From positions 1 through 34,656 of the IMG/VR virus record IMGVR_UViG_3300034280_001032: DNA of 34,656 bases; one strand, given 5' to 3'. A program made the position numbers and the translations under genes. The notes beneath the pieces are model-generated. The model searched no databases. It was not told where the DNA came from and worked only from the letters and a program-made list of their open reading frames with translations. Source of the stretch: a virus. Below, piece by piece: positions 1,200 to 14,307 of this stretch. The first letter of the stretch is position 1; every line of letters begins with the position of its first letter.

Positions 1200-1735
1200 T
1201 AGTTCAACCCTCCCTCTAACAAAAATTGCTCTTGTTCCACAATCACGCTCCAATCGTCATAGTTGGCATTTAAGGCATCCTGGAGATCTTCTGTAGTCCA
1301 TTTCGTATAGTGGACAATTTTCTCCAGTAGGAAATCTACGGATTTATTGTCGAACAACTTGTCTACAATTACGTCTAACCCAGTTTCAGCAAAAGCAGCT
1401 AACAGGACAATTGAACTCTGATTTTTGTTTACTACAGCGTCCCATGTGATTACTTTTGTAAAGTCTCTGGTTGAGATAGTCTTACTTCGTGTCGCACCTC
1501 TATCATTTTTTATCTCGGTTTCCTCTAGGCGACCTGTGTAACCTATATCCCATAAGCCATTGAGCGTTTTAGTACCCTTTTTAGCCGACTTGCTCAAATA
1601 CTCTTTATTCCGTCCGATAGCAATACTCGCCCCACCTATTCCGATCCGTTTCTCTCCATCTGGGAATAGGTAGCAATCAATAATTTTATCCCCTAGATTC
1701 AATTCTGCACGGATTGATCTTACAATATCTGACAT
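1199..1735 (-). CDS. Antirepressor-like phage protein, first of a tandem pair, 178 aa
   Basis: ATG at 1735 is preceded by AAGGAG with 10 nt spacing. Visible blocks are an N-terminal segment with FPDGEKRIGIGGASIAIGRN (about residues 24-43), a central TKTLNGLWDIGYTG, then ISTRDFTKVITWDA and SIVLLAAFAETGLDVIVDKLF, a layout I associate with cyanobacterial prophage antirepressor-like proteins. It lies at the downstream end of the virion operon but has its own promoter (extended -10 at 1812-1820) and a structured leader (1770-1797), so it is probably regulated apart from the virion genes. The same leader sits before the MSV199 antirepressor at 14031, which supports the regulatory reading. No HTH is certain. 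Confidence 0.6.
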   Translation of the reverse strand: MSDIVRSIRAELNLGDKIIDCYLFPDGEKRIGIGGASIAIGRNKEYLSKSAKKGTKTLNGLWDIGYTGRLEETEIKNDRGATRSKTISTRDFTKVITWDAVVNKNQSSIVLLAAFAETGLDVIVDKLFDNKSVDFLLEKIVHYTKWTTEDLQDALNANYDDWSVIVEQEQFLLEGGLN

Positions 1736-1769
1736 GGTGAACCGTCTCCTTAGAAGTTTTGGTTTACTA

Positions 1770-1797
1770 CCCCTGGGTGTTTACGCACCGCGAGGGG
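1770..1797 (-). ncRNA. Antirepressor leader RNA motif, copy A
   Basis: Read leftwards the element is an outer stem CCCCT/AGGGG, left bulge CGC, inner stem GGTG/CACC with hexaloop CGTAAA, and a single C on the right. It begins 14 nt after the -10 box and ends 34 nt before the ATG at 1735; GTAAACC follows the hairpin. Copy B (1999-2028) and copy C (13976-14005) keep the bulges and the TAAA loop but change both stems in compensatory fashion (GCTCCT/AGGAGC, GCCCTT/AAGGGC; GGTG/CACC to GATG/CATC). This is strong evidence for RNA structure. Function is unknown; antirepressor control is inferred from location. Confidence 0.75.
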
Positions 1798-1811
1798 TTT
1801 TGTTATTATTA

Positions 1812-1820
1812 ATTATATCA
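1812..1820 (-). promoter_or_regulatory. Extended -10 promoter of the antirepressor pair
   Basis: Leftward TGATATAAT (TG-N-TATAAT). The distance from its last base to the leader hairpin is 14 nt, exactly as at 13953-13961 before copy C. No good -35 hexamer is evident, as is normal for extended -10 promoters. Predicted transcription start is near 1805, placing the hairpin at the very 5' end of the mRNA. Confidence 0.65.
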
Positions 1821-1873
1821 TTTTTTATTAAGTTGTAGTATAGAACATACAATTTAATAAAAACAATTTACAT

Positions 1874-1905
1874 CCGCCGTTTAGTCTCCACCATAATCCG
1901 ATCAA
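1874..1905. repeat. Diverged copy of the 3' end of the tail-completion gene
   Basis: This 32-nt segment matches 2052-2083 at 30 of 32 positions. Both are followed, leftwards, by a copy of the leader hairpin, so a unit of gene end plus hairpin seems to have been duplicated in tandem. Leftward translation gives NEIVKTLDRIMVETKRRM here and DRIMVETNRRL in the other copy. The 354-nt gap between 1735 and 2090 holds this repeat, the two hairpins, and two promoters pointing in opposite directions; I see no full gene in it. Confidence 0.7.
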
Positions 1906-1951
1906 GAGTTTTAACAATTTCGTTTAGGTTTCGTTAACTGGTCTAAAAACT

Positions 1952-1960
1952 TGATATAAT
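1952..1960 (+). promoter_or_regulatory. Extended -10 promoter of a predicted small RNA
   Basis: Rightward TGATATAAT, identical to the extended -10 of the antirepressor promoter on the other strand. No convincing -35 hexamer. It would start transcription near 1967 and the first intrinsic terminator downstream is the hairpin at 1999-2028 followed by a T-rich stretch. Confidence 0.5.
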
Positions 1961-1966
1961 AGATCG

Positions 1967-2038
1967 TAGTGGGTTACTTCGTAAAACGTGGATCTACGGC
2001 TCCTGGGTGTTTACGCACCACGAGGAGCAATTTTATTT
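1967..2038 (+). ncRNA. Predicted small RNA antisense to the antirepressor leaders
   Basis: About 70 nt between the promoter at 1952-1960 and a terminator-like hairpin (GCTCC/GGAGC outer stem, GGTG/CACC inner stem, then AATTTTATTT). A 5' domain can fold through CGTAG/CTACG closing TTAC-TTC-GTAA. The terminator hairpin is the reverse complement of leader copy B, so its loop TTTACG is complementary to the leader loop CGTAAA: it would pair fully with the core of leader A (18 of 18 over GGGTGTTTACGCACC and flanks, allowing one change) and about 15 of 18 with leader C. Existence and function are inference; no transcript data are available. Confidence 0.45.
1999..2028. ncRNA. Antirepressor leader RNA motif, copy B (structured on both strands)
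   Basis: Leftwards: outer stem GCTCCT/AGGAGC, left bulge CGT, inner stem GGTG/CACC, loop CGTAAA, right bulge C. It lies directly downstream of the tail-completion gene and has no gene of its own behind it. On the rightward strand the same hairpin is followed by a T-rich run and can end the predicted small RNA. It may be a relic of duplication or the source of the antisense RNA. Confidence 0.65.
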
Positions 2039-2089
2039 AACAACCCTATAGCCGCCGATTAGTCTCCACCATAATCCGGTCAATTCTAA

Positions 2090-2494
2090 CTAAGATAAAA
2101 AACCAATTTCCCTTTTAAACATCTCAACCGGATCTAACCTCTTAACCGCCCGTTCCGTCCAATCCCGTCCAGGTATCCAACGCCCGACTCGATAAGCTCT
2201 GAAGCCTGTTAAAATCCGTCCTGCGTAGGGTTCTCCTGTGATTGGATCGTGGGGATTCCATTCGTAATTAGCAACAGTTTTATCGCCTTGTCTTGAGACG
2301 TTCAAAACTTGAGAATCGTTAAATCTTCCTGTGTCAATAATGTCTTGATTATCTAAGCCTAAATCAGAGAATTCGCTAGTGTCTTCAATCACAGCATGAA
2401 ATTCATTATCAAGAGCCGTCACAACCTCAGCAAAGGCATTGTCAACGGTTTTTAAAACTTTATTTAATGCAGCTTGATTAATTTTAATAGCCAT
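2090..2494 (-). CDS. Tail-completion / neck protein, HK97 gp10-like, 134 aa
   Basis: The pattern IIDTGRFNDSQVLNVS (about 51-66), then VANYEWN, YAGRILTGFRAY and a C-terminal helix is typical of small neck or tail-completion proteins of siphoviruses, where 'DTG.L..S' is the recurrent signature. It follows the 131-aa gene by 2 nt in a row of head-tail joining genes. The last sense codons are GGT TTT TTA TCT TAG. A -1 slip on T TTT TTA would bypass the stop and add 16 residues (ILVRIDRIMVETNRRL), ending at 2046; a diverged copy of that tail exists at 1874-1905, so the original protein probably had it. Confidence 0.65.
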   Translation of the reverse strand: MAIKINQAALNKVLKTVDNAFAEVVTALDNEFHAVIEDTSEFSDLGLDNQDIIDTGRFNDSQVLNVSRQGDKTVANYEWNPHDPITGEPYAGRILTGFRAYRVGRWIPGRDWTERAVKRLDPVEMFKREIGFLS

Positions 2495-2496
2495 AA

Positions 2497-2892
2497 TTAA
2501 TTATCAATCCACCATCCCTTAATTTTAGTCCCTGTATATTCCTTTTCCCAAGGCTGTTGATTATGAATCGAAGCCGAAAACTTACCTTTCTTACCATCAC
2601 ACTCAGCTTCAAACTCACGGGGCAAAACAACACCCGGAGGGAACACCATTGGCTCTACTAGATAGCCTTGCATATAGCTCGATGATATTCCTAACCCTCC
2701 GGGTCTTTGTTGCTTCAAATCATCTTTAGACCCCGTTTCCTTGAGATAACAGAGAAAGGGCTGTTTAGTTATTGATGGCACAATGTTACCCAGGTTATCC
2801 GTTGTTAGGCTATCCCCTGGCGTTTCTACCCAGAGTGTAACTTTTAATAAATATCTATCCAGATGGGATAAAAAGTAACTTTGCCTAACCAT
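2497..2892 (-). CDS. Head-tail joining (head-closure-like) protein, 131 aa
   Basis: A short beta-rich protein with a basic, aromatic N-terminus and a terminal KIKGWWIDN. Size, order (between the 174-aa and the gp10-like genes) and the middle segment EFEAECDGKKGKFSASIHN agree with a head-closure or stopper protein that joins portal to tail, but no specific motif proves it. Its start overlaps the upstream gene by 8 nt (2885-2892), so the two are coupled. Part of the leftward virion operon. Confidence 0.5.
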   Translation of the reverse strand: MVRQSYFLSHLDRYLLKVTLWVETPGDSLTTDNLGNIVPSITKQPFLCYLKETGSKDDLKQQRPGGLGISSSYMQGYLVEPMVFPPGVVLPREFEAECDGKKGKFSASIHNQQPWEKEYTGTKIKGWWIDN

Positions 2893-3409
2893 AAATAGCC
2901 CCTTCTTTGATTAACTCACAAGCAAAATTAACTTCGTAGTTTTTGGCATCTTCTGGAATTTCAATCCTATAGGCTTGACGGGAATCACAATCATAAACAA
3001 TGTGGATACCAGGTTTGATGTGACTATCAAAAACAGCGATATCTGATTGCACCCACTCAAGGTTAATAATCTCAGGACAGATTAACAAGATACCTACAGC
3101 AATAAACGCCCTCGGTGGTTTTGCCTTGCCATCTGTAACCCCGTCTAACAATTCCATCACTGGTATCTCAGCAACCGCCCAAGACGGGATTTTTTGAGAG
3201 TCTAATAATGATTGAAATGTGTTACAGCAAGCCGTTGAAAATTTCTTGTCTTGGGATTTAAAGAAGCAGAAATCCTCAGTGCTTTTATAGGGGGGTTTGG
3301 TGACATTAAATCTATAGAGAAGGGATGAAAGTTGGGCGATCGCAATTTCTTCAAAATGCAGTCTTTCCCGTTCAAACTTCTCCCCCTTCTCCAAAGCATC
3401 AAGGATCAA
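2885..3409 (-). CDS. Putative tail terminator / virion protein, 174 aa
   Basis: The start is TTG at 3409, overlapping the TGA of the upstream gene as TTGA; no in-frame ATG occurs until well inside the protein, so the TTG start is favoured by coupling. The N-terminal half is helical and charged, the C-terminal half has beta stretches (IHIVYDCDSRQAYRIEIP). Operon position after the tail tube and chaperone-like genes suggests a tail terminator or neck protein. No family recognised. Confidence 0.45.
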   Translation of the reverse strand: MILDALEKGEKFERERLHFEEIAIAQLSSLLYRFNVTKPPYKSTEDFCFFKSQDKKFSTACCNTFQSLLDSQKIPSWAVAEIPVMELLDGVTDGKAKPPRAFIAVGILLICPEIINLEWVQSDIAVFDSHIKPGIHIVYDCDSRQAYRIEIPEDAKNYEVNFACELIKEGAIYG

Positions 3410-4155
3410 CCAGATTGGTTGCTCACCAAAACTTTCGGGTTTGAATCGGTTTTCTGACGGCCAGAGCCTTTGGACTCTCCAGAAGATTTCTCCCCAATCG
3501 GTGCGGGAGGTTCGTCTGAAGCCTTTTTTATATCTTCCTCAGTGATTTCCTGAACTTCCTCAGTGGGTTCGGGATTTTTACCGCCATTCCGTTGACGTTC
3601 AATAAACGCCCAAACATCCTCGATATAACCCCAGGATAAACGGTTCTCGGTATCGGAATCACTCCATTTTCTGATCTCACTAATTGCACCCAAAACTTGA
3701 GAGCGATTAGGACTATCAGATGGGAGACTTTCTAGTTCATCCTGTAGTGATTGCCAACACCGATTAGCAATGGCAACAGTACAAACCGCCATTTTCTTAG
3801 CCGAAGACTCCCGATCTAACTGCACCGACATTTCACCAATATCAGAAGCGTACTTTAACCGGATTTCCTGATAATCAATCTCGGAATCTTCACTTTCCTC
3901 GGACGAAGATGTAATCACTTGGTAGGCTTTGGTGAGCTTAATTTTCTCGGCTTCTGCAATCGTTCGAGCTAGTTTAGCTACAAGGGTAAAACCAGGGGAG
4001 AATTTATCGGAAACCTCGTCAATTTTTGCTTGTTCAGAAGCGAGTAAAGCATTTTTCCCTTTCTCGCCTTTATGAACAAAGAACTTGACACCTTGAATTT
4101 CTTCGTAGGATTCCTCACTCCGTTTTGACTGCAAGAAAAAAGGCAAGCTGACCAT
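3406..4155 (-). CDS. Tail assembly chaperone-like protein, 249 aa
   Basis: A mostly helical protein directly downstream of the tail tube gene, the normal place for the tail assembly chaperone that coats the tape measure before tube assembly. Residues about 50-190 are helical and acidic; from about 195 the chain is low-complexity (E, P, K, S, G) and probably disordered. I see no second overlapping chaperone frame with a convincing slippery site, unlike the G/GT pair of lambda. Start ATG at 4155 lies 24 nt after the tail tube stop. Function is inferred mainly from context. Confidence 0.45.
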   Translation of the reverse strand: MVSLPFFLQSKRSEESYEEIQGVKFFVHKGEKGKNALLASEQAKIDEVSDKFSPGFTLVAKLARTIAEAEKIKLTKAYQVITSSSEESEDSEIDYQEIRLKYASDIGEMSVQLDRESSAKKMAVCTVAIANRCWQSLQDELESLPSDSPNRSQVLGAISEIRKWSDSDTENRLSWGYIEDVWAFIERQRNGGKNPEPTEEVQEITEEDIKKASDEPPAPIGEKSSGESKGSGRQKTDSNPKVLVSNQSG

Positions 4156-4179
4156 ATTTTATCCTTAAAATTATCGTGA

Positions 4180-4932
4180 TTAAACCGTGGCAACCAAAGC
4201 AGATCCGTTAAATTTAACGGTGACAATTCCGCAATATTTAAAATCAATATTGCCCATAATAATTCCTTTTGAAGATGATTCAATCGGGTCAGAGGTAATA
4301 TTAGCAATCCCCTCATAGACAAACCCGGCAGTATAGGCAGTATCACCCGGACAGGTAGGGGTTGGATAGGCGACTTTTAAGAACACTTTACCCGGTGCCC
4401 CAACTTGATATTGAAGACGGGCTTTTTTGACGTTCATATAACCCGCGTCAAGGTTCATAAACATACCCGTAGTGGAAATAGTTTGACCTAGTGATGTTTT
4501 GGCATAATCTCGCCACCCATCATTATCAAAGTTTTCCAGTTCAACCTCATCATCTTCTGAGTTGTTATTAACTGTAGACCGACCGCCTAATTTTGTCGGC
4601 CATTCAGCCGTTGATGCTGCGGTGATAGCCTTCGGGATTGGCTTGGTGGGGATAGAAGTGGCACCCGCAGTGATGTCTCCATTAACTTCTACCATTGTTT
4701 CTTCTCCCGTGACGGAATCCTTGAACAAAAGGAAGGGTTCCGTCACTTCAGGACGGGTTAGGAATGATGCTCCGGTAATCGGAATTGAGGTATCTCCGGC
4801 ATCCGCTCCTCCAGTAGCGACGGTAAAGGTTCCAGATTGGGGATAGATCAAAGTACAGGGAACAGGAGCAACCCAGATCCGAGTTCCTTCACCTTGGGTT
4901 CCTGCTAAATAGAATGCTTTGTTTGTAGCCAT
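4180..4932 (-). CDS. Major tail tube protein, 250 aa
   Basis: A beta-rich protein of the right size with a typical tail-tube layout: an N-terminal strand region with Gly/Thr/Ala loops (TFTVATGGADAGDTSIPITG), a middle 'DNDGWRDYAKTSLGQTIS' resembling the DDGW.....GQ segment seen in many tube proteins, and a C-terminal segment GIIMGNIDFKYCGIV. An inner repeat-like ADAGDTSIPI / TAGATSIPT suggests an Ig-like insert near residues 40-100. ATG at 4932 has AGGAAACC a few bases upstream. It sits before the chaperone-like gene, as in siphoviruses. Confidence 0.6.
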   Translation of the reverse strand: MATNKAFYLAGTQGEGTRIWVAPVPCTLIYPQSGTFTVATGGADAGDTSIPITGASFLTRPEVTEPFLLFKDSVTGEETMVEVNGDITAGATSIPTKPIPKAITAASTAEWPTKLGGRSTVNNNSEDDEVELENFDNDGWRDYAKTSLGQTISTTGMFMNLDAGYMNVKKARLQYQVGAPGKVFLKVAYPTPTCPGDTAYTAGFVYEGIANITSDPIESSSKGIIMGNIDFKYCGIVTVKFNGSALVATV

Positions 4933-4952
4933 TTTGGTTTCCTGTTAATCAA

Positions 4953-5375
4953 TTAGGGTATGGGAGTAGGAACAGTTAGGGTATAGTCTTCAGTGATTTT
5001 GAAGCACCCTTTCACTGTCCGAACAATTGCGGGGATTCCTGAAGTAGAAACCTGAACATCAAATACAAATTGTTGACCAGGTTCTAAACCTTCTGAGTCT
5101 GACGGTTCAGCAATTAAAACTGTAACTTTCTTAATGAAATCACTAACATTAATGATTGTCACGCCCTGGTTGGCAACGGTTTTGGCTGCAATAATTACGT
5201 CTTGAGGAACGAGTTTTAAAGAGCCAACAACAGCCAATCCGGTCAAGTCAGTTCCGGTGATTGTGCCATGCAAGATAACGGTATCTTGACGAGGAAAATC
5301 AGGATTAATTGAATTATCAACCTTTTGACCCGTGCGTTCAAATTTGAAATTTAAATCAAGCAAAGTTTCAGCCAT
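4953..5375 (-). CDS. Beta-sandwich virion protein, 140 aa
   Basis: Alternating strands and Thr/Val-rich turns (TVILHGTITGTDLTGLAVVG, GQQFVFDVQVSTSG) point to an immunoglobulin-like or similar beta fold, as used in head decoration or tail-surface proteins. Its start overlaps the end of the 221-aa gene by 8 nt (5368-5375), so the two are translated together. It comes right before the tail tube gene. No named family is evident. Confidence 0.5.
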   Translation of the reverse strand: MAETLLDLNFKFERTGQKVDNSINPDFPRQDTVILHGTITGTDLTGLAVVGSLKLVPQDVIIAAKTVANQGVTIINVSDFIKKVTVLIAEPSDSEGLEPGQQFVFDVQVSTSGIPAIVRTVKGCFKITEDYTLTVPTPIP

Positions 5376-6033
5376 CGCAATTAAATCTCAAATATCCGCA
5401 AGTAGGCTGATATTTCCGAGTTGATTTGTTACCAACTCTGAAAGCATATTTGCACTCATCTCCTGGAATGTTTTGAGTCTCAAGAGGGAGAATAAATACA
5501 GTGCCAATAATTTGTTCTTCTCCCGTAGGAAGAACCGTGATTTCATCCTCTGAAATTCCACCAGGCATCAATTCAACTTTTTTGCTAATAATTGGAACAT
5601 TCCCAAGGGTGAAAATTTCAAATTCAGCAAATAGATAATTTAAGCGATATCCGGTCAAGATATAAGTCAAATTGAAGTTACTGCCTTTTTTGATTGTGGC
5701 TGATTCAATCGGGACTAAATCATCAACAAACAATTCAACTTTAGGAGCAGGAACAGAGGGGGAAAACACCCAGGGAACTACGGTGGTTTCCGTTTCTGGG
5801 TTAATCTTAGCAATTCCGTGGCGGTGTCTCTCATATTTGTTAATAGTTGTTTTTAACAAACTAAAGGATGTCGCAACATGGGGAGAACGATCACGCCCCG
5901 TAATGGCAGGTGTTGTTTGGGTGAGCGCACCCATTTGGATTAACGCCCCACGCTCCCTTATCAAATCTAACGCTGCGACTTCTGTGGTTTGACTAACCAC
6001 TGGAATTGTTACTGAACCTAAAATTAGTGGCAT
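5368..6033 (-). CDS. Virion protein of unknown role, 221 aa
   Basis: A gene of the leftward virion operon with GGGAGG-type Shine-Dalgarno (GGAGGGAATT before the ATG at 6033). The protein has an N-terminal helical region and a middle beta region with LTYILTGYRLNYLFAEFEI. Four Cys occur near the C-terminus (DECKYAF, PTCGYLRFNCDG). Translationally coupled to the next gene. Position between a Gp80-like protein and the tail tube suggests a baseplate, decoration or neck role; I recognise no family. Confidence 0.5.
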   Translation of the reverse strand: MPLILGSVTIPVVSQTTEVAALDLIRERGALIQMGALTQTTPAITGRDRSPHVATSFSLLKTTINKYERHRHGIAKINPETETTVVPWVFSPSVPAPKVELFVDDLVPIESATIKKGSNFNLTYILTGYRLNYLFAEFEIFTLGNVPIISKKVELMPGGISEDEITVLPTGEEQIIGTVFILPLETQNIPGDECKYAFRVGNKSTRKYQPTCGYLRFNCDG

Positions 6034-6042
6034 AATTCCCTC

Positions 6043-6840
6043 CTAGATTAAGGTATGGGCAATTTCACCCGCCAGGAATTTGAATTGATCATTGAGATCA
6101 ATAGTCTTGGCTACATCCAAGGCACCTCCGGCGAGGAATTGACCGCCCGTTTCAGAATCATGCCAACCGAAGTGAGTCTGAGTCCCTTGATTAGCCGTTG
6201 CCAGAGGGAATAAGATATCCGAGTTCAGGAGCTTTTGACCCCCTGACCACGGCGAAAAGTTCGCCGCGCTATTGGCTACAGTTTGACGAACATAGCCACC
6301 AACTGCGGGTTCTGTTCCGCCTGCGGTTGCTGTGGGGGCTGTCAGGTAGTGGGCTGCGTAAATCGTCGGAAACACGGGAATAGGGGCGACATTGTAGCAA
6401 TCATTCAGGATCAGATTCTTGAGATAATTGCTATATAGTCCAGAGATAAAAGTATGATTCAGACCGCCTGCAAGTATGATTAGACGATCGCGTACCATGA
6501 TTGTCTCAACGTCTTCAGCGTGCCAAAAGACGTAACAGTTCCCCGCTACAGACGAATCAAACAAGCCAAACCCGACAATTTGACCCCAGTTAGCGGTTGC
6601 TCTAGGGTAGGTGATATCCAATAACTGTGTCACAGTCCCCGTTGTTGAGTCGCTAAAATACGTCCCGTTCAGTGCGACTCGGACATACCCACCCCCTACG
6701 GGTTCCGAGCCAGGGCCGTTAACTGAAGGGGTGGTAATAAACGCAGCTAAATAAGGGGAATGAGAACTTTTAGAATTACCACCAAAAATATGGTCGAGAT
6801 ACTTCTGAGCGGCGAGATTGGTAAATGATCCAGTTGGCAT
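6043..6840 (-). CDS. Virion protein with a duplicated beta domain, 265 aa
   Basis: Two copies of one domain lie in tandem, about residues 28-135 and 158-265. Each starts with a strand plus T.PS/T, goes on with EP..GGYVR, a block ATAN.G, a F..HD/FGLFD segment and ends with .LAGGLNHTFI or FLAGEIAHTLI. This pattern fits the Gp80-like family of phage tail or capsid-surface proteins (LYTAPP...TEVSGGSYAR type). A strong AGGAGG lies 7 nt before the ATG at 6840, inside the end of the upstream gene, with which it overlaps by 65 nt. Head-decoration or tail-surface role is inferred. Confidence 0.6.
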   Translation of the reverse strand: MPTGSFTNLAAQKYLDHIFGGNSKSSHSPYLAAFITTPSVNGPGSEPVGGGYVRVALNGTYFSDSTTGTVTQLLDITYPRATANWGQIVGFGLFDSSVAGNCYVFWHAEDVETIMVRDRLIILAGGLNHTFISGLYSNYLKNLILNDCYNVAPIPVFPTIYAAHYLTAPTATAGGTEPAVGGYVRQTVANSAANFSPWSGGQKLLNSDILFPLATANQGTQTHFGWHDSETGGQFLAGGALDVAKTIDLNDQFKFLAGEIAHTLI

Positions 6841-7177
6841 TGTTATCTCCTCCTAATGCGAAGGGATTGAATTGAGGAGCGAGTTTATAACCTATTGTTT
6901 TGGCTAATTCTCGCCTGAGTTTTTCTAGGTGATTAGAGATGTCGCACTTGCGGTTTTCCTTCCATTCGATGACATCAACTCTTGTTAATCCGGTGGCAGC
7001 TTCATCAGCTTTGCTTTCAAAATCCTTGATTCTTAGGATTAGTTTTTGAGTTTGTTGAACCCAAGCCTCTGAACGTTTTTCTAGGATTTCCAAGAGTTCC
7101 ATTAAGGGTTTTTCTTCAGAAATATCAATTTGTAATATTCTGAGAACTTCCCATTTTTCCTCTAGCGTGAATGGCAT
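6776..7177 (-). CDS. Coiled virion or head protein, 133 aa
   Basis: A largely alpha-helical, charged protein (residues 1-100) with a C-terminal NPFALGGDN segment. It directly follows the zinc-ribbon gene with 9 nt between them and overlaps the duplicated-domain gene by 65 nt; the overlap is real because the next gene's AGGAGG site lies inside it. No recognisable family. Position after the capsid gene suggests a head-completion or connector adaptor. Confidence 0.5.
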   Translation of the reverse strand: MPFTLEEKWEVLRILQIDISEEKPLMELLEILEKRSEAWVQQTQKLILRIKDFESKADEAATGLTRVDVIEWKENRKCDISNHLEKLRRELAKTIGYKLAPQFNPFALGGDNNANWIIYQSRRSEVSRPYFWW

Positions 7178-7186
7178 TGTTTTCCA

Positions 7187-7438
7187 TTATTCCACCGGAC
7201 AATTAGAAGGTTTTGGAGTGACAGGACAGATATACTTCCCTGAATTATCGGTCAACCTTTTCGAGCCACAAATCGGGCAGGAATACCCAGCATAGCTAGG
7301 ATAAATTGGCTTAACTTCTGTCTTTTTTTCCTGCTTTTTATTGTCCTTGGGTTCCTGTTTTCCGTATTGAATTACAGGGGATGGATTGACTTCTACAGGG
7401 AAAGATTCTTTTGAGATTTCTGGTTTTTCAGTTGCCAT
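7187..7438 (-). CDS. Small zinc-ribbon protein downstream of the capsid gene, 83 aa
   Basis: The N-terminal 48 residues are Lys/Pro/Glu-rich and probably disordered. The C-terminal part has CPICGSKRL at about 54-62 and then C..T....NCPV, four Cys that could bind one zinc ion. Start ATG at 7438 lies 9 nt from the capsid gene stop with GGGAGAAATT as binding site. It may be a small head or assembly factor; the function is unknown. Confidence 0.6.
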   Translation of the reverse strand: MATEKPEISKESFPVEVNPSPVIQYGKQEPKDNKKQEKKTEVKPIYPSYAGYSCPICGSKRLTDNSGKYICPVTPKPSNCPVE

Positions 7439-7447
7439 AATTTCTCC

Positions 7448-9343
7448 CTATAAAGCAACATCAAGAGTCCGGACTTCCACAACTCGCAACTGTTGATCGT
7501 TAGACAGAGGGGGATTAGATGCGGGGTCAACGTCTAAAGCTGCCGCGCATTCATAGGAATTCCAAATAAATCGGTTAATTCGTCCGAATCCATCTTCTTT
7601 TGCTTTTTTGATTGTGAAAGGCATGGCGATTGAGCGTCCGATAGTATCTCGACCTGCAACATAGGAGGAACGGGTCAATCTAGCACCGGAACCCGTGGTT
7701 TCGGTTTGGACTCCCTCTGTTCCCGTAGCACCTGCACCAAAGGCATTAGTAATAAAGATGTGGAAATTAGCAACGGAATACAAATACCCGTCAGTTTTCC
7801 CCAAATCATTCATCGTGGTTTGTTTCAGGAGTGAGGTTAAATCCTCCATCCCGACCTTGGTTGTATATCGGGTATTTTCTTGCAATGAGTTGGTTAAACC
7901 CGCTGCCGAGAATGGATTGGAAACGAGAATGTAATGTCCGTCATCAAGAGGGGGAACTTTCAGGAATCCGTACAGATAGGCGTAAAGATTTGTTAGGAAT
8001 GGAATGGTCAGGATTCCGCTATCCCCAGCACCCAGGTCGCCGACTGTGGTGGTAACTCCACTGTTGTCGTTATAAACAACCCGCGTAGTACCGCCCCATA
8101 GTTCACGGATTAAAACGTCTTCAAATTCGTTGTAATTGTAGCCAAGGTTTCTCTCAATAAATGGCATTAGGTCAAGCAACGAAGTCCGCATATAGAACTC
8201 AGCAATTGTTAAAGGTGGCATGGTAGCATCTTTGCCTAAACCATATTCTTTAAGAACTGCTTTGACGTGACCCGCTTCTAAAGCCTGGTTATTTGCGGTA
8301 ATATCAACCAGAGGATCTAACTCCCAAGCGTTAGATGTTGTGGCACTACTTGAATACCGAACACGGGGGATTTGGATCGTATCTCCGACGTTATACCCTA
8401 GACTGATATTTCTATTAGCAAACTGCCAAAAGATAAATGCTGGGCTGTGATTTGTCCGAGCCAATGCACTCAGGGTTTCTAAATACATTGGGGGGATTGT
8501 TGCAGGGCTGGTGTTATCAGAATTTCGCCCTTGTAACAATCCGTTGCGCTTCATTTGCTGCTCTAAACCGTCAACGATTGAATCGTAATTTAATCGGGTA
8601 AATCGGTCTAAATTGGTGGTGTCTTTGAACTGTACAATTTCTCCCGATTGACGATTAACAGAACTTACAACAGGGCAGTCTGTTTTGCTGTCAATAATGC
8701 GTTTAACTTCTCGAAAAGCGTCAAGCCCTGACATCCGATGGGTGCGACCTTCTACCTGTAGATAAGGTGAGGGTCTGTAATTATCAGATTGAACTTGCAG
8801 GACTCCTTGTTCTGCTATCTTTAGGTCGATACCAGTGTCAGCAAAGATCCGAGTCCAATCCTCTGTTTTCTTGCGTTCTTCTCTGAGTTTATCTTGATAG
8901 GCTTTTTCTAGTTCTAATAACTTGTCTTTGGCTATTTCAGCCTCTTGTTTAGCCCTGGTAGCTTCATCAAGACTTTGTTGAATAATAACAGCGTCTTTAT
9001 CAGCTTGCATCCGAACATTTTGATTGATTAACGCTTGCAACCCATTACGATCTAATTTGATCGTGTTGTCGCTCTGCGCCTCGATAACAAGATCGGGTTT
9101 GTTCTGAGGTGCTTCGGGCGCGGGGGGTGCTTCCTCTTGATTATCTTTCCCCACGATTGTCGGGGGTTTTACAGGTGGATTCATAGGGATATCGGATTCT
9201 GTTGGTGTGGGAACTTGATCAATTCTGCTTTGATCGGTTGTTCGTTGTTTTTTGGCATCGTTCAACTTTTTGATCGCATCTTGTTCAATTCCGTGGGTTG
9301 AATCAGAAAACGTATCCTTTAAAATTCTCAAGGCACGTTTCAT
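7448..9343 (-). CDS. Major capsid protein with N-terminal scaffold domain, 631 aa
   Basis: Residues 1-100 are Pro/Gln-rich and disordered, 105-165 form a charged coiled coil (KQEAEIAKDKLLELEKAYQD), and 180-631 are a globular capsid domain. This agrees with HK97-fold capsid proteins in which a fused delta/scaffold domain is cut off by the prohead protease, and the protease gene lies immediately upstream at 9684-10337. The capsid part has long helices, the acidic loop VVYNDNSGVTTTVGDLGAGD, and the C-terminal KEDGFGRINRFIWNSYECAA. HK97-fold is inferred; N4-gp56-like capsids are an alternative. A rightward XRE gene separates it from the protease gene. Confidence 0.75.
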   Translation of the reverse strand: MKRALRILKDTFSDSTHGIEQDAIKKLNDAKKQRTTDQSRIDQVPTPTESDIPMNPPVKPPTIVGKDNQEEAPPAPEAPQNKPDLVIEAQSDNTIKLDRNGLQALINQNVRMQADKDAVIIQQSLDEATRAKQEAEIAKDKLLELEKAYQDKLREERKKTEDWTRIFADTGIDLKIAEQGVLQVQSDNYRPSPYLQVEGRTHRMSGLDAFREVKRIIDSKTDCPVVSSVNRQSGEIVQFKDTTNLDRFTRLNYDSIVDGLEQQMKRNGLLQGRNSDNTSPATIPPMYLETLSALARTNHSPAFIFWQFANRNISLGYNVGDTIQIPRVRYSSSATTSNAWELDPLVDITANNQALEAGHVKAVLKEYGLGKDATMPPLTIAEFYMRTSLLDLMPFIERNLGYNYNEFEDVLIRELWGGTTRVVYNDNSGVTTTVGDLGAGDSGILTIPFLTNLYAYLYGFLKVPPLDDGHYILVSNPFSAAGLTNSLQENTRYTTKVGMEDLTSLLKQTTMNDLGKTDGYLYSVANFHIFITNAFGAGATGTEGVQTETTGSGARLTRSSYVAGRDTIGRSIAMPFTIKKAKEDGFGRINRFIWNSYECAAALDVDPASNPPLSNDQQLRVVEVRTLDVAL

Positions 9344-9355
9344 TTAATGTTTACA

Positions 9356-9448
9356 GGTAAAGTATGCTGTTTTTATCTTAGTATCTGTTTTATGTAGAGG
9401 TGATATAATTGATTCAATAATGATGCAATTTAAAGGGTAAAGTATGCT
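9356..9448. promoter_or_regulatory. Pair of direct repeats, probable operators of the XRE regulator
   Basis: GGTAAAGTATGCT occurs at 9356-9368, just upstream of the capsid gene start, and again at 9436-9448, overlapping the start codon of the XRE gene; the spacing is 80 nt (copy to copy). A site at the regulator's own start and one before the opposing capsid gene is what an autorepressor that also controls capsid expression would need. Binding is inferred. Confidence 0.5.
9401..9409 (+). promoter_or_regulatory. Extended -10 promoter of the XRE regulator
   Basis: TGATATAAT in the rightward direction, 34 nt before the start codon at 9444. It is the same extended -10 sequence as at 1952-1960 and (leftward) 1812-1820. 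No clear -35 box. It lies between the two GGTAAAGTATGCT repeats. Confidence 0.5.
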
Positions 9449-9683
9449 AAACAAACCCCAGGAAAATAATGATTCAGACAATATAGACGAATTAAGTTTA
9501 GGAGAACTGATAACAATAGCAAGAAATAGAGCCAACTTATCCCAGGAAACATTAGGGAAAAGGGCTGATGTGAGTCGTCTTACTGTTTATCGGTACGAAA
9601 AGGGTTACTCTATCCCAACCTGCGACCGCCTTGAAAGAATTGCTAAAGCGGTCAATCACCCGATTGATTGGTTTTATCAATAA
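9444..9683 (+). CDS. XRE/Cro-CI family repressor, 79 aa
   Basis: A classic helix-turn-helix of the XRE type: LITIARNRANLSQETLGKRA (about 23-42), then DVSRLTVYRYEKG as recognition helix and turn, and P..DRLERIAKAVN after it; the final DWFYQ is common in small repressors. The whole protein is one DNA-binding domain with a 20-residue acidic N-tail. It lies on the opposite strand between the prohead protease and the capsid genes, an unusual place for a repressor, and is flanked by repeated operator-like sites (9356, 9436). The gene ends 1 nt before the protease gene's stop. Confidence 0.85.
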   Translation: MLNKPQENNDSDNIDELSLGELITIARNRANLSQETLGKRADVSRLTVYRYEKGYSIPTCDRLERIAKAVNHPIDWFYQ

Positions 9684-10337
9684 TTAATCATCTGGTAATT
9701 CAATTTTTGCCCCCGGTAAATTAGGAATCAGAACCAAGCTAACTTCCCCTAAATCTTTGGAACCTTTTCTGATATAAAAAGGGGAAGTTAAATCGCTATC
9801 TGGTTCATAGGGGGAGGGGATTAAATGGGGACAAGCTGCGTCATAGAATGAACAGTCACACAATGGACACCAGAGATCGTCAATAGTGAAGTTACCTAAA
9901 GAAACATAGCTGGTCATGCCCAACCAGAGAGACTCAAGAATAGGAGCATCAACCGGAATCATAGCTTTTAATTGTAGTTTTGTATAACCTTCATCCCCTA
10001 CAATCCATCTGTTTAGATCAAAGTTTCCGGCTTTTGCTAAGTCTTCATAGGGCGGTTCTTTAGTCTCGCAATAAGCATCAAATATCCTACCTTGAACTTT
10101 ACTAATATTATCCCAATCATGATCTAAAGTAACGGTTATCCCCGGTGCTAACATTGCTAACTTTTGCAATGAATCTGTTGACCATTTTCCTCGACTTCTA
10201 TTCATCAAATTGTCGGCGGCGGTTATTTCTACCACCACAATCTGGTGGGATTCTGCCTTGGAAAACTTTTTAACTTTTAACATTTCCTCCGGTGTTGGGT
10301 GGGGAAAACCAATTTTTCGGTCTGAATCTGTAAACAT
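9684..10337 (-). CDS. Prohead (capsid maturation) protease, 217 aa
   Basis: The segment GITVTLDHDWDNISKVQGRI (about 66-85) with His73 is the His-containing strand seen in S78-like prohead proteases ('LDHD....GR'), and YVSLGNF with Ser146 is a candidate nucleophile region, followed by GEVSLVLIPN. In between lies an unusual Cys/His cluster, CPLCDCSFYDAACPH (157-171), probably a zinc knuckle. Place just upstream of the scaffold-capsid fusion supports the role of cutting the scaffold part. Catalytic residues are assigned by eye. Confidence 0.6.
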   Translation of the reverse strand: MFTDSDRKIGFPHPTPEEMLKVKKFSKAESHQIVVVEITAADNLMNRSRGKWSTDSLQKLAMLAPGITVTLDHDWDNISKVQGRIFDAYCETKEPPYEDLAKAGNFDLNRWIVGDEGYTKLQLKAMIPVDAPILESLWLGMTSYVSLGNFTIDDLWCPLCDCSFYDAACPHLIPSPYEPDSDLTSPFYIRKGSKDLGEVSLVLIPNLPGAKIELPDD

Positions 10338-10373
10338 TTTGTATACTTAAAATATTGAGTTAATAACAATTAT

Positions 10374-10580
10374 ATGGCAGTTTACGTTGATAAAAATAAC
10401 CCGCAAACTATTGTCATCTCATCACGGGATGCTAACGGTGATTTGCAGGAGGTAGGGACGGTTTCAGTAGCTTATACCGTAGTGGCAAACAAGGAAGTTG
10501 CAACTCTGGCAATTGTTCCGACTCCTACTGTGGCAACCCTTGGAGGGACTACAGCAGCCGTCACTTTGACGCTTGCATAA
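10374..10580 (+). CDS. Small beta-rich protein, 68 aa
   Basis: The rightward frame fills the gap between the protease start (10337) and the head-morphogenesis stop (10561), overlapping the latter by 20 nt. The product is all beta-like: alternating Val/Thr strands, the turn SRDANGDLQEVG, and a Val/Ala/Thr-rich C-terminus (PTVATLGGTTAAVTLTLA), similar in style to Ig-like decoration proteins. No clear Shine-Dalgarno precedes the ATG. Together with the XRE gene it is a rightward insert in a leftward operon. Role unknown. Confidence 0.5.
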   Translation: MAVYVDKNNPQTIVISSRDANGDLQEVGTVSVAYTVVANKEVATLAIVPTPTVATLGGTTAAVTLTLA

Positions 10581-11244
10581 AGTCCTTATTCCAAATAGAA
10601 AGGGAGAGCCGTCTGACAAAATCTTTCGGCTTTTCTTTTGCAAATTCCTTAAAACAACCACAATTAGACCGACAATCACATTGTTCCGTTGGGGCGGGGA
10701 GTGTGTTAATTGGTTGCCATCCCATGCCCTCGTAAATGATGCAGGGTTGACAGGATTCGGTTTTGGTTCTTCTCCGGCGCTCCCAATTAAACCCGTTTTT
10801 AGAGTGCCCCTCGGTTCGGGCTTTTTCGTGTAATCCAGATCCGGCACTACTATACAAGTCCAACCTTCTGAAAAATTCAGCTTGACTCATACCCTTGGTT
10901 CTGAGTTCTTCCCCGAATTTCCTCAAGTATTGATACTCCCTCCTAAGTCTTTGACCAATCAATCCATAGTCCCGTTGAGTTACGGAGTTTTTACCACCAA
11001 GCCCTAATAAATAGGATTGAATATGCAGGTTTTTGAGTGCGATCGCCGTGGTTTCTTCCCAGGTTGAAAGGGATATTTTTTTATTGACTAATAGCTCGCC
11101 AATAGTTCTAATATCCTCTTGGGTTTGTTCTATATTGCGCTGCAACATAAATTTAATGGCAGTAGCGGGGACAAATTGACCCCGCCCTGCACCCTGTTTA
11201 TAGTGGTAGCGCTGAGTTTTAGGGTTAAATATAAACTCATTCAT
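10561..11244 (-). CDS. Head morphogenesis protein, SPP1 gp7 / Mu F-like, 227 aa
   Basis: The helical first 150 residues are followed by a Cys-rich region with C.PC..Y.GMGWQP and TLPAPTEQCDCRSNCGC, the signature of the minor head protein family of SPP1 gp7 and Mu gpF. In those phages the protein enters the head with the portal and links it to the capsid or DNA. Here no portal gene precedes it in the window. Start ATG at 11244 overlaps the upstream 60-aa gene by 8 nt, so the two are coupled. Confidence 0.7.
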   Translation of the reverse strand: MNEFIFNPKTQRYHYKQGAGRGQFVPATAIKFMLQRNIEQTQEDIRTIGELLVNKKISLSTWEETTAIALKNLHIQSYLLGLGGKNSVTQRDYGLIGQRLRREYQYLRKFGEELRTKGMSQAEFFRRLDLYSSAGSGLHEKARTEGHSKNGFNWERRRRTKTESCQPCIIYEGMGWQPINTLPAPTEQCDCRSNCGCFKEFAKEKPKDFVRRLSLSIWNKDFMQASK

Positions 11245-11419
11245 AGGGCATTGTGAACTTATGCTCTGTGATGATATTAACCAGATTTTCCAACTGTTCG
11301 TCTGTTAATAGAACTTTCCCCCCAAAATCATCGGTAATAATCCACTGGGTAGTATCCCCGTCCGTTTCCTTGGCTACGGTTGGGCAACACCGATTAGAAC
11401 ATAATTCAGTTCTTTGCAT
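11237..11419 (-). CDS. Small Cys-containing phage protein, 60 aa
   Basis: A short protein with a CSNRCCPT start and then WIITDDFGGKVLLTDEQLENLV. It overlaps the head-morphogenesis gene by 8 nt and lies 5 nt after the membrane protein gene stop, so it fits the operon. The C..CC set could bind a metal. No family recognised; conserved-looking D[DN]FGG..L[TS].EQL blocks are common in small phage proteins. Confidence 0.55.
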   Translation of the reverse strand: MQRTELCSNRCCPTVAKETDGDTTQWIITDDFGGKVLLTDEQLENLVNIITEHKFTMPYE

Positions 11420-11423
11420 AATC

Positions 11424-11771
11424 TTAATTGTTGTTATTAGGATCTGGCTCTAAATCTAATTCTAACTCATAGATTCCTTCTAGTTTGTCAACTTGAAATT
11501 CTAGGGAATATTCAATCATTATTGCAATATAGGCATTAAACAGCGCACAAAGGAAACCTTGGGGGATATTAAATGGCATTCCCAGAAGGAAATATACTAT
11601 TACTGATGTTTCAAAAGTTTGGCAGTATGGACACCCAAAAAGCTCAGTAAATAGCGGGTGCTTATCGTTTAAATAGTTTCTGACTGGGTGCAGTAGTTTG
11701 TATTTGAATAGGAACCAACGCAACCCTAGAGACAGGAAAAGGAAGATTATAATATTGTCTAATAATGGCAT
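11424..11771 (-). CDS. Membrane protein with a CPYC motif, 115 aa
   Basis: Two hydrophobic segments are seen: about 5-22 (NIIIFLFLSLGLRWFLF) and about 55-85. Between them is GCPYCQTFETSVIVYF, a CxxC pair next to a membrane helix, similar to small phage membrane proteins of the DUF1360 kind (CPWC..). The C-terminus is acidic and ends in Asn. It is the second gene of the virion operon. Role unknown; a redox or metal function is only a possibility. Confidence 0.55.
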   Translation of the reverse strand: MPLLDNIIIFLFLSLGLRWFLFKYKLLHPVRNYLNDKHPLFTELFGCPYCQTFETSVIVYFLLGMPFNIPQGFLCALFNAYIAIMIEYSLEFQVDKLEGIYELELDLEPDPNNNN

Positions 11772-11776
11772 AAAGT

Positions 11777-12328
11777 TTAAATGTCTATAATATTTTGGTC
11801 TTGTTTCTCCCGAATACTTTGATAATATTCAGCTAAAACCTTGGTTTGATCTAGCTGATCGTAGGCTTGAAAGATTGTTTTAACTACCTCTACAGCAGTC
11901 CGAGTTACTCGATCAGAACCCGAATATGTCAGCCTTGTACAAGCCTTGATCGCGTCATCACTTTTCGATGCTTGCTTATAAGCATTACTGCTTACAGTGA
12001 GTGAGTGGGCTGCAATTGTTTCCAACCCACTAACATAAGCCCTCAATTTTCGTTGACGTTCTTGCAGTTCTTGTTCGTATATTCCCTCTTTATCTTTTTC
12101 GATTATAGCTTCCATTTTACTAGCCCTTCCCCGCAGCAATTCCTGTCTTATTTGTTCCCAGATTGGATCTTTCTTCCAAGTGCGGATAACTTTTTCGTCA
12201 ACTCCGATTCGTCTGGCAACCTCTCTATTACTGAGTTCTGGGTCGTCAAACAAGAGTAGAATGGCTTTTTTTATTAGCTCAATATGTGATGTTTTGATGG
12301 TTTTGTCCGCACCTTTCCGCAACAACAT
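11777..12328 (-). CDS. HTH protein, probable terminase small subunit, 183 aa
   Basis: A homeodomain-like helix-turn-helix lies near the N-terminus (LSNREVARRIGVDEKVIRTW), followed by a charged helical region (SKMEAIIEKDKEGIYEQELQ) and a second helical part. This is the layout of phage small terminase subunits that recognise the packaging site, and the gene is the first of the virion operon. I prefer the ATG at 12328; a frame starting at 12379 would overlap the divergent ParB-like gene. No large terminase or portal follows, which is odd, so a transcription regulator is the alternative. Confidence 0.5.
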   Translation of the reverse strand: MLLRKGADKTIKTSHIELIKKAILLLFDDPELSNREVARRIGVDEKVIRTWKKDPIWEQIRQELLRGRASKMEAIIEKDKEGIYEQELQERQRKLRAYVSGLETIAAHSLTVSSNAYKQASKSDDAIKACTRLTYSGSDRVTRTAVEVVKTIFQAYDQLDQTKVLAEYYQSIREKQDQNIIDI

Positions 12329-12372
12329 TAGTTTTAAGTTAACATAATTGAAAACATTGCTACAACTTAAAC

Positions 12373-13023
12373 ATGACAAAACCTAAAATTACTGAGACTG
12401 ATATCTCTAAATTGACTCCCGATCCTAACAATGCCCGCAAAAGAACGCCATTATCAGCAAGCGTTATTAGAAAATCGTTAGAACAGTTTGGGGCGGCTCG
12501 AAGTATTGTTGTCGATGAAAATGACGTGATTCGGGCGGGTAATGGGACGTATGAAGAGGCGGGTCAATTAGGGATTGAGAAGGTTGTCACCATTGAGGTA
12601 GACGGCAATACTATTGTTGCAGTCAAAAGGAGAGGATTGACTGAGGAACAATGGAAAAAGTATGCGATCGCTGATAATACGGCTTCTGATTTCTCAACAT
12701 GGGACTTTGATATTTTGAGTGAGTTAACTCAGGAAATTGATCTATCTGAGTTTTTCCCTGATGATAAGTTGAATGAATTATTAAAACAATTGGGGGATAG
12801 CAAGAATGAAGGTATCAATGTTTTCCCTGATTATATCAACATGGACGATCAGGATGTAGAGACAACAGCAGAAAATTTTAGCTCGAATGTTAAGAGGAGT
12901 ATAATTATTGATTTTCCTGCCGATGAGTATGACGAAGCTAAAAAACTATGTAACACAGCAAAGAAAAAAGGAGAAGATATTGGTGCTATTTTAGTATCTG
13001 CACTAAAAGATGTTTTACAATAG
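12373..13023 (+). CDS. ParB/sulfiredoxin-fold protein, 216 aa
   Basis: The N-terminal 120 residues have the ParB nuclease-like pattern: LTPDPNNARKRTP, IRKSLEQFGAARSIVVDENDVIRAGNGTYEEA with the GN.. turn, and then the VKRRGLTEEQWKKYAIADNT block found in phage ParB-like proteins. The C-terminal part is acidic and ends in a domain with IIIDFPADEYDEAKKL that a broken reading frame further on (13689-13898) also resembles. No methyltransferase domain is fused. Starts a rightward cassette, divergent to the virion operon. Possibly a DNA-binding/nuclease factor in base modification or packaging. Confidence 0.7.
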   Translation: MTKPKITETDISKLTPDPNNARKRTPLSASVIRKSLEQFGAARSIVVDENDVIRAGNGTYEEAGQLGIEKVVTIEVDGNTIVAVKRRGLTEEQWKKYAIADNTASDFSTWDFDILSELTQEIDLSEFFPDDKLNELLKQLGDSKNEGINVFPDYINMDDQDVETTAENFSSNVKRSIIIDFPADEYDEAKKLCNTAKKKGEDIGAILVSALKDVLQ

Positions 13024-13047
13024 AGAACGAACCAGTAACCTGTACAA

Positions 13048-13749
13048 ATGAAAGAACAAAAATTAATAGTAACAAAACATGACTACAAAAGAAATGATAG
13101 CCCAACAAGCCTCATTCCGAACGTAGTAGACTCAACTGTATTCCTTGATTCTATCGGTAACAAAGTTGGATTTTATCTCAGGAGTTTGCCGGATGATGTT
13201 AATGATGTTTTAGAATATTGCAACAAAGAACTAAGAAGTGACAGAGTACCTAAATCGACAATGCACAGACAATTGCCACTGGGAACTAAAAGCAAGACAG
13301 GAGCGTGGGAATATGATACTGTCGAACAGGAGTCTGTGATAATCGGATCTGTACCCGCAAAGCCTCACCAAAGAAGACCTTTTAATTCAATAAGTCAAGT
13401 TCATTTAAAAAATTCAGCGTCTGCTTTTATTAAAGGAATGATAGTATTAGCAAAGCTGTCAGAGAATCTGATTAAAGATATTATGCCAGAGCAGTATTTT
13501 ATTCAGAAAAAAATAATAGAAGAAAATGTTTTAAAAAAATTTAGATTTGGAGATTTATTTACTAGCTCTATTAGCAATTATAATATAGCTGCTAATTATC
13601 ATCAGGACAATAGAAATCTCAAGAACACTGTAAATGTTATTTACTCAAAAAAAGAAAATGCCAGTGGTGGAAATCTTCATGTGCCAGAGATGGTGACGAA
13701 TTTGATGAAAATGATCCTACGACTGAATCATCGGAATGGATTACTGTAG
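13048..13749 (+). CDS. TET/JBP-like 2-oxoglutarate oxygenase, C-terminally truncated, 233 aa
   Basis: Near the end the protein has NYHQDNRNLKNTVNVIY with an HxD iron-binding pair, then ENASGGNLHVPE, the 'HxD ... GG.L..P' pattern of phage 2OG/Fe(II) dioxygenases related to TET/JBP base hydroxylases. The distal His and Arg that should follow about 30-60 residues later are missing: after HVPE the frame runs into a basic nonsense tail and stops. A different protein C-terminus continues in the -1 frame (13689-13898). So the enzyme is probably dead, unless a frameshift rescues it. Next to a ParB-like gene, a DNA-modification origin is likely. Confidence 0.55.
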   Translation: MKEQKLIVTKHDYKRNDSPTSLIPNVVDSTVFLDSIGNKVGFYLRSLPDDVNDVLEYCNKELRSDRVPKSTMHRQLPLGTKSKTGAWEYDTVEQESVIIGSVPAKPHQRRPFNSISQVHLKNSASAFIKGMIVLAKLSENLIKDIMPEQYFIQKKIIEENVLKKFRFGDLFTSSISNYNIAANYHQDNRNLKNTVNVIYSKKENASGGNLHVPEMVTNLMKMILRLNHRNGLL

Positions 13750-13898
13750 TTGTTAAAATCCCTTCTGATGCGATGGAGAGAATACAAGATGTGTACAACA
13801 TCGTAAAAGATGAAAGGGGTACTTTACACAAAGATAAAGCGATTGCATGGGGACAGGTTTTGGAGTCTATGTCTGCTGATTACTTAGCTGGAAAATAG
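13689..13898 (+). pseudogene. Orphan C-terminal fragment related to the ParB-like protein's C-terminus
   Basis: In the -1 frame relative to the oxygenase gene a good protein end is readable: DGDEFDENDPTTES, then WITVVVKIPSDAMERIQDVY and a terminal VLESMSADYLAGK, stopping at 13896-13898. It resembles in style the ParB-like C-terminus (IIIDFPADEYDEAKKL...). It has no start codon before an internal ATG at 13773. The simplest reading is a deletion that joined the 5' part of an oxygenase gene to the 3' part of another gene. A -1 shift on the seven A at 13647-13653 could in principle join the two frames. Confidence 0.5.
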
Positions 13899-13952
13899 GA
13901 ATAATTGAACCTAAATTAATCGGGAGATTGCCAGACTAATTAATATTAATTG

Positions 13953-13961
13953 TGGTATAAT
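13953..13961 (+). promoter_or_regulatory. Extended -10 promoter of the split antirepressor
   Basis: TGGTATAAT (TG-N-TATAAT), 14 nt before the leader hairpin, the same spacing as in the other antirepressor leader. The -35 region has no good hexamer at the normal distance. Predicted start near 13968. Confidence 0.65.
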
Positions 13962-13975
13962 GGTTAATAGTAATC

Positions 13976-14005
13976 GCCCTTCGTGATGCTTAAACATCCA
14001 AGGGC
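13976..14005 (+). ncRNA. Antirepressor leader RNA motif, copy C
   Basis: Outer stem GCCCTT/AAGGGC, left bulge CGT, inner stem GATG/CATC with loop CTTAAA, right bulge C. Compared with copies A and B both stems have changed on both sides, keeping pairing, while the bulges and TAAA of the loop are kept. TGTAAACCTAAC follows, similar to TAGTAAACCAAAAC after copy A. The ATG of the antirepressor is 26 nt downstream. Confidence 0.75.
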
Positions 14006-14030
14006 TGTAAACCTAACATACAGGATCACA

Positions 14031-14300
14031 ATGATTGATTTTAGCAAAGAACTGGCTTTAAGTTTACTCGGATCTGGTAAAGAATACCCCGTTGATTTTG
14101 AAGACGCTTGGCAATGGTTGGGATATTCGAGTAAACAGGCTGCCAAAAAGAAGCTAACCCGCAACTTTGAACAAGAGGAAGACTATTTATCCGAATGGAT
14201 GAAAACCCCAGATGGCGGTCGTCCTAGCGAATCCATCTATCTCACCGTCGATTGTTTCAAGGCATTAGGGATTGATTGTTTTAATGTGTTATACTATTAA
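14031..14300 (+). CDS. Antirepressor N-terminal fragment (MSV199 domain), 89 aa
   Basis: ATG at 14031 follows AGGATCACA. The product has the MSV199 domain pattern: VDFEDAWQWLGYSSKQAAKK, an acidic stretch, then GGRPSESIYLTVDCFKALGI at about 62-81. In intact relatives this is directly followed by MMAGTEKG...R.YFL.CEKEL. Here codon ATT at 14271-14273 is followed by a few chance codons and a stop, and the missing continuation, MAGTEKGRETRQYFLRCEK, starts at 15032 after the endonuclease gene. So the gene is split exactly in the conserved junction. The fragment could still fold as an independent DNA-binding or binding domain. Confidence 0.75.
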   Translation: MIDFSKELALSLLGSGKEYPVDFEDAWQWLGYSSKQAAKKKLTRNFEQEEDYLSEWMKTPDGGRPSESIYLTVDCFKALGIDCFNVLYY

Positions 14301-14307
14301 AACAATC
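14274..14307 (+). repeat. Perfect hairpin at the left end of the endonuclease insert
   Basis: GATTGTTTTAAT at 14274-14285 is perfectly complementary to ATTAAAACAATC at 14296-14307 with a 10-nt loop. The first base of the hairpin is the first base after the inferred exon end (14273). No T-run follows. It may be a structural part of the insert, or an attenuator that lowers read-through into the endonuclease gene. The right end of the insert has no such repeat. Confidence 0.6.

Follow-up and report, generated by a model that had tools for sequence, protein, structure and literature searches.

A conserved two-hairpin element opposite the start codons of phage homing endonuclease and antirepressor genes, a probable source of small cis-antisense RNAs

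The restraint that phages place on their homing endonucleases and antirepressors is known from a few model cases, each of them different. The sar RNA of P22 has two stem-loops, with convergent promoters. C4 RNA of P1 and P7 is cut out of the transcript that also carries ant and works through short stretches of complementarity. RNA-OUT of IS10 and art200 of IS200 are structured antisense RNAs, whose promoter opposes that of the transposase gene and which cover its ribosome-binding site. In terms of function, sar is a small antisense RNA pairing with a phage antirepressor mRNA and lowering its translation, c4 limits antirepressor synthesis through base pairing, and CfrI of cyanophage S-PM2 is an antisense RNA beside a homing endonuclease gene (PMC12197685). 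For the T4-type endonucleases I-TevI, segB and mobE, early transcripts mask their own ribosome-binding site with a hairpin, and late promoters are also present (PMC2988022). Here we describe a two-hairpin element that occurs three times, as copies A, B and C, in a virus contig of the IMG/VR database (IMGVR_UViG_3300034280_001032), the whole 34,656 bases of which are called the window below. What the sequences show is a conserved structure of two hairpins, the strand to which it belongs, its position at a start codon and promoter-like boxes on both strands. The element is probably the gene of a small cis-antisense RNA that would restrain translation of the facing gene.

An earlier note on the window had reported three hairpins as a leader RNA ahead of two antirepressor genes. 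All three were found at the stated coordinates, each with 0 mismatches to the core pattern; when up to 3 mismatches were allowed, the pattern had 4 matches in the window, a count that no shuffle equalled. As reported, the outer stems are wholly different between the copies and yet paired, the CGY and C bulges are kept in all three hairpins, the hairpin lies exactly 14 nt from TGATATAAT in copy A and from TGGTATAAT in copy C, and GTAAACC follows copies A and C. The hairpin, P1, is however only half of the element, since it is separated from the start codon by a second hairpin, P2. On the antisense strand the two are written P1′ and P2′. Features around the three copies are as follows, with E values from our covariance model, R1.

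1721..1726, + strand: -10-like box TACAAT, candidate promoter element of the antisense RNA of copy A, within the first codons of gene 1199-1735 (from sequence)
1736..1799, + strand: copy A, candidate antisense RNA (R1 E = 5.2e-11, copy in the training set)
1736..1768 and 1769..1798, + strand: hairpins of copy A, P2′ covering the ribosome-binding site of the - strand gene, then P1′
1799..1811, + strand: T-rich tail past P1′ of copy A, possible 3′ end of the antisense RNA (from sequence; termination presumed)
1812..1820, - strand: extended -10 box TGATATAAT, putative mRNA promoter of gene 1199-1735, P1 hairpin 14 nt away (from sequence)
1199..1735, - strand: gene facing copy A, 178 amino acids, PHROG 32599 (function unknown), by protein profile match
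1952..1960, + strand: extended -10 box TGATATAAT ahead of copy B (from sequence)
1968..2029, + strand: copy B, full two-hairpin element, orphan (R1 E = 1.3e-5, copy outside the training set)
13953..13961, + strand: extended -10 box TGGTATAAT, putative mRNA promoter of the AntA-like gene (from sequence)
13975..14030, - strand: copy C, candidate antisense RNA with P2′ and P1′ (R1 E = 3.6e-10, copy in the training set)
14038..14046, - strand: extended -10 box TGCTAAAAT, candidate promoter of the copy C antisense RNA, within the target open reading frame (ORF) (from sequence)
14031..15556, + strand: AntA/MSV199-like antirepressor gene facing copy C, interrupted by a 758-nt insert (14273-15030)

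The computed fold of copy A has an energy of -25 kcal/mol. The 5′ end of copy C, at 14030, adjoins the ATG at 14031, and the fold z-score of this copy is -3.83 on the - strand versus -1.70 on the + strand; its TGCTAAAAT box is kept in close relatives of the AntA-like gene. Of the two genes taken for antirepressors, only the one at 14031 has matches of that kind. The second half of the 14031 gene matches PHROG 63, "anti-repressor Ant", and its match to AntA reaches 17.5 bits, under the Pfam cut-off of 27 bits; the product of gene 1199-1735 belongs to PHROG 32599 and has no Pfam match.

The window element can be set against the described systems. Nine reference phages (T4, Aeh1, Aeromonas phage 25, S-PM2, S-SM1, Ma-LMM01, CL131, P22 and P1) had no R1 match at E ≤ 0.1, so that the distribution of the element is patchy; Aeromonas phage 25 was included for its seg43 hairpin. 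As candidate antisense RNAs over a ribosome-binding site, copies A and C would fit sar in position and strand, the target of A being a gene of unknown function. However, sar has one known target, whereas the present family puts one fold opposite many unrelated targets, mostly homing endonucleases; as P22 is among the phages without a match, no sequence or structural relationship to sar was found. C4 differs likewise: its Rfam model, RF01695, has no match here, nor has R1 in P1. RNA-OUT and art200, which we set apart by description, differ in sequence, hosts and targets, and the present element has two hairpins and a conserved internal loop. Like our family, the T4-type genes have a structured RNA where a phage homing endonuclease gene begins, there with late promoters, to which TATAAATA may correspond here, but in our family the stable strand is the opposite one and no stable mRNA fold hiding the ribosome-binding site was found; T4, Aeh1 and Aeromonas phage 25 all lack an R1 match. 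CfrI is antisense to psbA and not to an endonuclease start, and S-PM2 has no R1 match either. In the open-licence literature, no report was found of an antisense RNA over homing endonuclease starts. On the best reading, the family would be a portable cis-antisense brake resembling sar, c4 and RNA-OUT in function, with no relationship to them found in sequence or Rfam. The 4227 Rfam models gave no match in the window at family gathering thresholds, and at E up to 5 no convincing match over the element in four loci; identity with a known Rfam RNA was rejected on these searches.

At least 130 distinct copies were found in IMG/VR and isolate phages. The first IMG/VR scan used a relaxed core pattern and yielded 79 contigs, and the second, in which only TATAAATA, TCGYG and CCA were fixed, at least 120; these counts are lower bounds, because the listings are incomplete and the patterns were derived from known copies. 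The further copies include some ahead of antirepressor-type genes. In the first scan the outer stem was well paired in nearly all matches and its sequence diverse, although the pattern did not require pairing. Among the second-scan matches, which were chosen by sequence, 80 of 107 distinct ones had at least 3 of the 4 inner pairs and at least 4 of the 5 outer ones, and most stem positions show all four Watson-Crick types. P2 reads CUAAC.../...AUCAG in the endonuclease group and GUAAACC.../GGUUCAC in the window type, and its distal pairs covary strongly. RNAalifold folded 67 aligned antisense sequences into two hairpins with 19 pairs, 15 of them with double compensatory changes. In this set, 97.6% of the alignment cells were paired (70.9% in shuffles, at most 45.2% when slid) and the covariation score was 0.739 (0.193 in shuffles, at most 0.140 when slid). 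The proposal of a covarying RNA element linked to such genes is thereby strongly supported. The TAAA loop, said to be kept, is variable in the family, mostly with a C.A or U.G closing pair (C.A 40 and U.G 26 among second-scan matches, both of the same shape), and in relatives of the AntA-like gene the hairpin is kept but its loop differs. What is conserved in P1′ is an internal loop, 5′-UGG...GCGA-3′, possibly a site bound by a partner or one for fast pairing. At L037:11764 and L050:2092, the hairpin halves are of different types or the right half is lost, possibly through recombination inside the element or as assembly chimeras.

The question of which strand folds was addressed with matches picked on strict Watson-Crick pairs only, a choice neutral between strands. 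In gene-sense letters, the 130 distinct P1 sequences contained 32 A.C mismatches and 4 G.U, and P2 contained 182 and 27, respectively. The third P2 pair is A.C in gene sense, hence G.U in antisense, in 108 of 119 cases (63/67 in the aligned set). Since an A.C mismatch reads as G.U on the complementary strand, the selected fold belongs to the strand opposite the gene. The antisense strand was also the more stable in 67/67 copies, by a mean difference of -6.8 kcal/mol; P2′ reaches -7.5 kcal/mol in antisense, while gene-sense P2 has a mean of -2.5 kcal/mol, and the gene-sense Shine-Dalgarno sequence is unpaired with a probability of ~0.5. A leader on the mRNA, as the earlier note had it, is therefore not supported. 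Control of synthesis, the function proposed there, is still likely, but an antisense RNA would exert it instead of a 5′ leader. The direction given for copy B was wrong as well: the motif of A and B is on the - strand and that of C on the + strand, so that B has the orientation of A, and only its box TGATATAAT at 1952-1960 points rightward.

In all 21 of the model matches inspected, the 5′ end of the element adjoins an opposite-strand start codon; the three copies in PaV-LD adjoin coding-sequence starts as annotated by the depositors, and in Pseudoalteromonas XG4 and Variovorax V45v66 the element stops one base short of the start of the tblastn match. The distance between TATTTA and the end of P2 is nearly constant in the endonuclease group, 5-7 nt in 53 of 64 cases. 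TATTTA is read in all three frames (MSIY, MYL, MIFI), keeps its spacing in variants with the AUG shifted upstream of CAGC, and occurs within the first 30 nt of 33 target ORFs versus 12 other ORFs of the same loci. Read on the other strand, TATTTA gives a late-type ATAAATA box, ~5 bases ahead of GCUG, the conserved 5′ end of the predicted RNA. Elements without TAAATA upstream, those of the window included, have a -10-like box at the antisense site in 13 of 17 cases (mean 1.8 and maximum 5 in 300 shuffles). Because the target proteins are unrelated, the shared start nucleotides are not due to protein homology, and an antisense promoter would thus explain them. At the other end, a T-rich tail is general, with at least 4 T at tail positions 2-9 in 99/102 and 19/28 elements. 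On the gene-sense side, TATAAATA is found upstream of most endonuclease targets, a frequency that is not independent evidence, as the second scan selected for TATAAATA. A promoter-start-codon helix, P0, in which TATAAATA would pair with TATTTAT past the AUG as in T4 I-TevI, was considered and rejected, because GGTAAATA elements, read by eye, are mostly without the matching change.

The targets are diverse. Among 101 downstream proteins, 54 match PHROG 314 and 37 PHROG 655, both homing endonuclease families with overlapping sets, and an antirepressor-specific element is not supported; the others match HNH families and antirepressors in PHROG. Pfam adds NUMOD3, HNH, GIY-YIG, TnpB (OrfB_IS605; contig L185), BRO-N and Rha. 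One element faces a gene of the BstA type, associated with abortive infection (L009:1682-2515); L009 is a single contig from one scan of genome contigs, binned as Psychroflexus, and since its element resembles the cyanophage type it may be misbinned. Isolate-phage copies were found by target-protein search followed by R1; sequence search of isolate phages with the endonuclease-type hairpin gave nothing useful, because both stems vary. R1 found 14 copies in one 360-kb phage, 7 in another, 3 in PaV-LD, and one each in Rhizobium phages I46 and N34, Agrobacterium OLIVR5, Pseudoalteromonas XG4 and Variovorax V45v66.

Taken together, these features suggest the following mechanism. Transcription would set out from a promoter within the target's first codons, run against the target gene and yield an antisense RNA of ~60-75 nt. 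The 5′ hairpin P2′, complementary to the ribosome-binding site, would form first and P1′, with its conserved internal loop, next; the RNA would end in the T-rich tract at the target promoter. The target mRNA would begin near P1 and so hold the entire complement; complementarity of the element strand to the target mRNA is certain. Once paired with the antisense RNA, the mRNA would have its ribosome-binding site covered, in some variants the start codon too, and a gene that is mobile or potentially harmful would be translated less. The conserved G.U pairs of P2′, being A.C mismatches in the mRNA, would keep the antisense RNA folded and the mRNA leader loose. A wider proposal, which we hold only tentatively and consider rather doubtful as a whole, is that the element is a portable antisense module of one fold that rides with unrelated mobile or harmful genes (homing endonucleases, TnpB, antirepressors, BstA-like), that its internal loop binds a common partner, and that orphans like copy B silence incoming relatives in trans.

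Several points weigh against an antisense RNA. Its production, its 3′ end and repression by it are all deduced from sequence. P1′ is no textbook terminator, the T frequency of the tail is ~0.4-0.6 outside the TATAAATA group, and a terminator scan, which disallows bulges, gave no match at P1′. In that group, TATAAATA is only mildly enriched upstream of other genes (34/574 versus 20 for its reverse complement), and 15 of 130 copies face no ORF, several of them at contig ends. Furthermore, 34 of the 51 targets in the TATAAATA group are opposite to both neighbours, and the neighbouring operon might then be served by the RNA as well. Because of this frequent orientation of endonuclease targets, the strongest rival is that the structured strand is a promoter with a 5′ leader, or an insulator, for the neighbouring host operon; a mobile gene inserted against the operon would bring an outward promoter with a stable leader and be tolerated, since the next gene is still expressed. 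In Rhizobium phages I46 and N34 the RNA is indeed directed at the next gene, 30-80 nt off, and T4 endonuclease genes can hold promoters for downstream genes (PMC2988022). However, 12 of the 51 cases and many others have same-direction neighbours, which allow no such leader, and their structure is unchanged, an argument against this reading as the general role. The genes upstream of the targets of window copies A and C also run in the same direction as these targets, a T-rich tail follows P1′, and it would be left unexplained why the 5′ end keeps to the ribosome-binding site and start codon of the gene opposite. We therefore regard an operon leader as unlikely.

We give still less credit to the hairpins being a 5′ leader of the target mRNA that controls its translation or stability in the manner of the T4 endonuclease hairpins. 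Their place is indeed after the sense promoter and ahead of the start codon, P1 folds in gene sense too, and I-TevI, segB and mobE are under leader-hairpin control (PMC2988022), but the excess of gene-sense A.C over G.U in both stems and the weakness of gene-sense P2 speak against it, and the promoter-like boxes within the coding start would have no explanation. That the hairpins act as DNA, a single-strand fold read by a recombinase or transposase and marking the edge of a mobile cassette, is in our judgement highly improbable: the targets are mobile genes, one of them TnpB, promoter and hairpin are common to cassettes with different upstream DNA, and the L037 hairpin looks recombined, but there is one copy per gene, always at the 5′ end and tied to the ribosome-binding site and promoters, and R1 found no partner copy in 21 stretches examined.

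If the antisense reading holds, one conserved antisense RNA would be a general solution to the restraint of such genes, moving with them through phages or phage contigs of cyanobacteria, Rhizobium/Agrobacterium, Pseudoalteromonas and Variovorax, with up to 14 copies per phage. It would give annotation a new RNA family, flag mobile genes in phage genomes and supply, in naturally occurring sets, parallel antisense pairs for studies of specificity, and the conserved G.U pairs, opened in the mRNA and closed in the antisense RNA, would form a testable design rule.

Copy B faces no gene, since no ORF in the window list begins on the - strand opposite it. It has a strong extended -10 box and is flanked by 56-nt direct repeats, 79% identical, at 1850-1905 and 2028-2083, which suggest a duplication or insertion event; the segment with copy B and its repeats is absent from the relatives L010 and L013. 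Copy B may be a relic or a trans-acting RNA. Homologues of gene 1199-1735 occur in PaV-LD and in plasmid pCYLM02, and in the latter the R1 element was not found. The insert in the AntA-like gene contains one further feature.

14328..15029, + strand: GIY-YIG homing endonuclease within the antirepressor gene (PF01541 E = 2.9e-10; PHROG 314 E = 3e-28)

An uninterrupted relative, L094, aligns to 14031-14272 and 15031-15556. The insert is nearly all endonuclease ORF, with scant space for a group I intron, and a 13-bp inverted repeat, TGATTGTTTTAAT/ATTAAAACAATCA, is immediately upstream of the endonuclease ATG. Upstream of copy C, gene 13048-13749 has weak similarity to Tet_JBP oxygenases (E = 0.0065, under the Pfam cut-off). 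In Rhizobium phage RHph_N34 (L232:2283-2846), a gene for a FinO-type RNA chaperone stands beside the endonuclease that faces the element, and contig L113 carries at 4258-4544 a permuted transfer-messenger RNA (RF04321, E = 2e-12) plus a tRNA.

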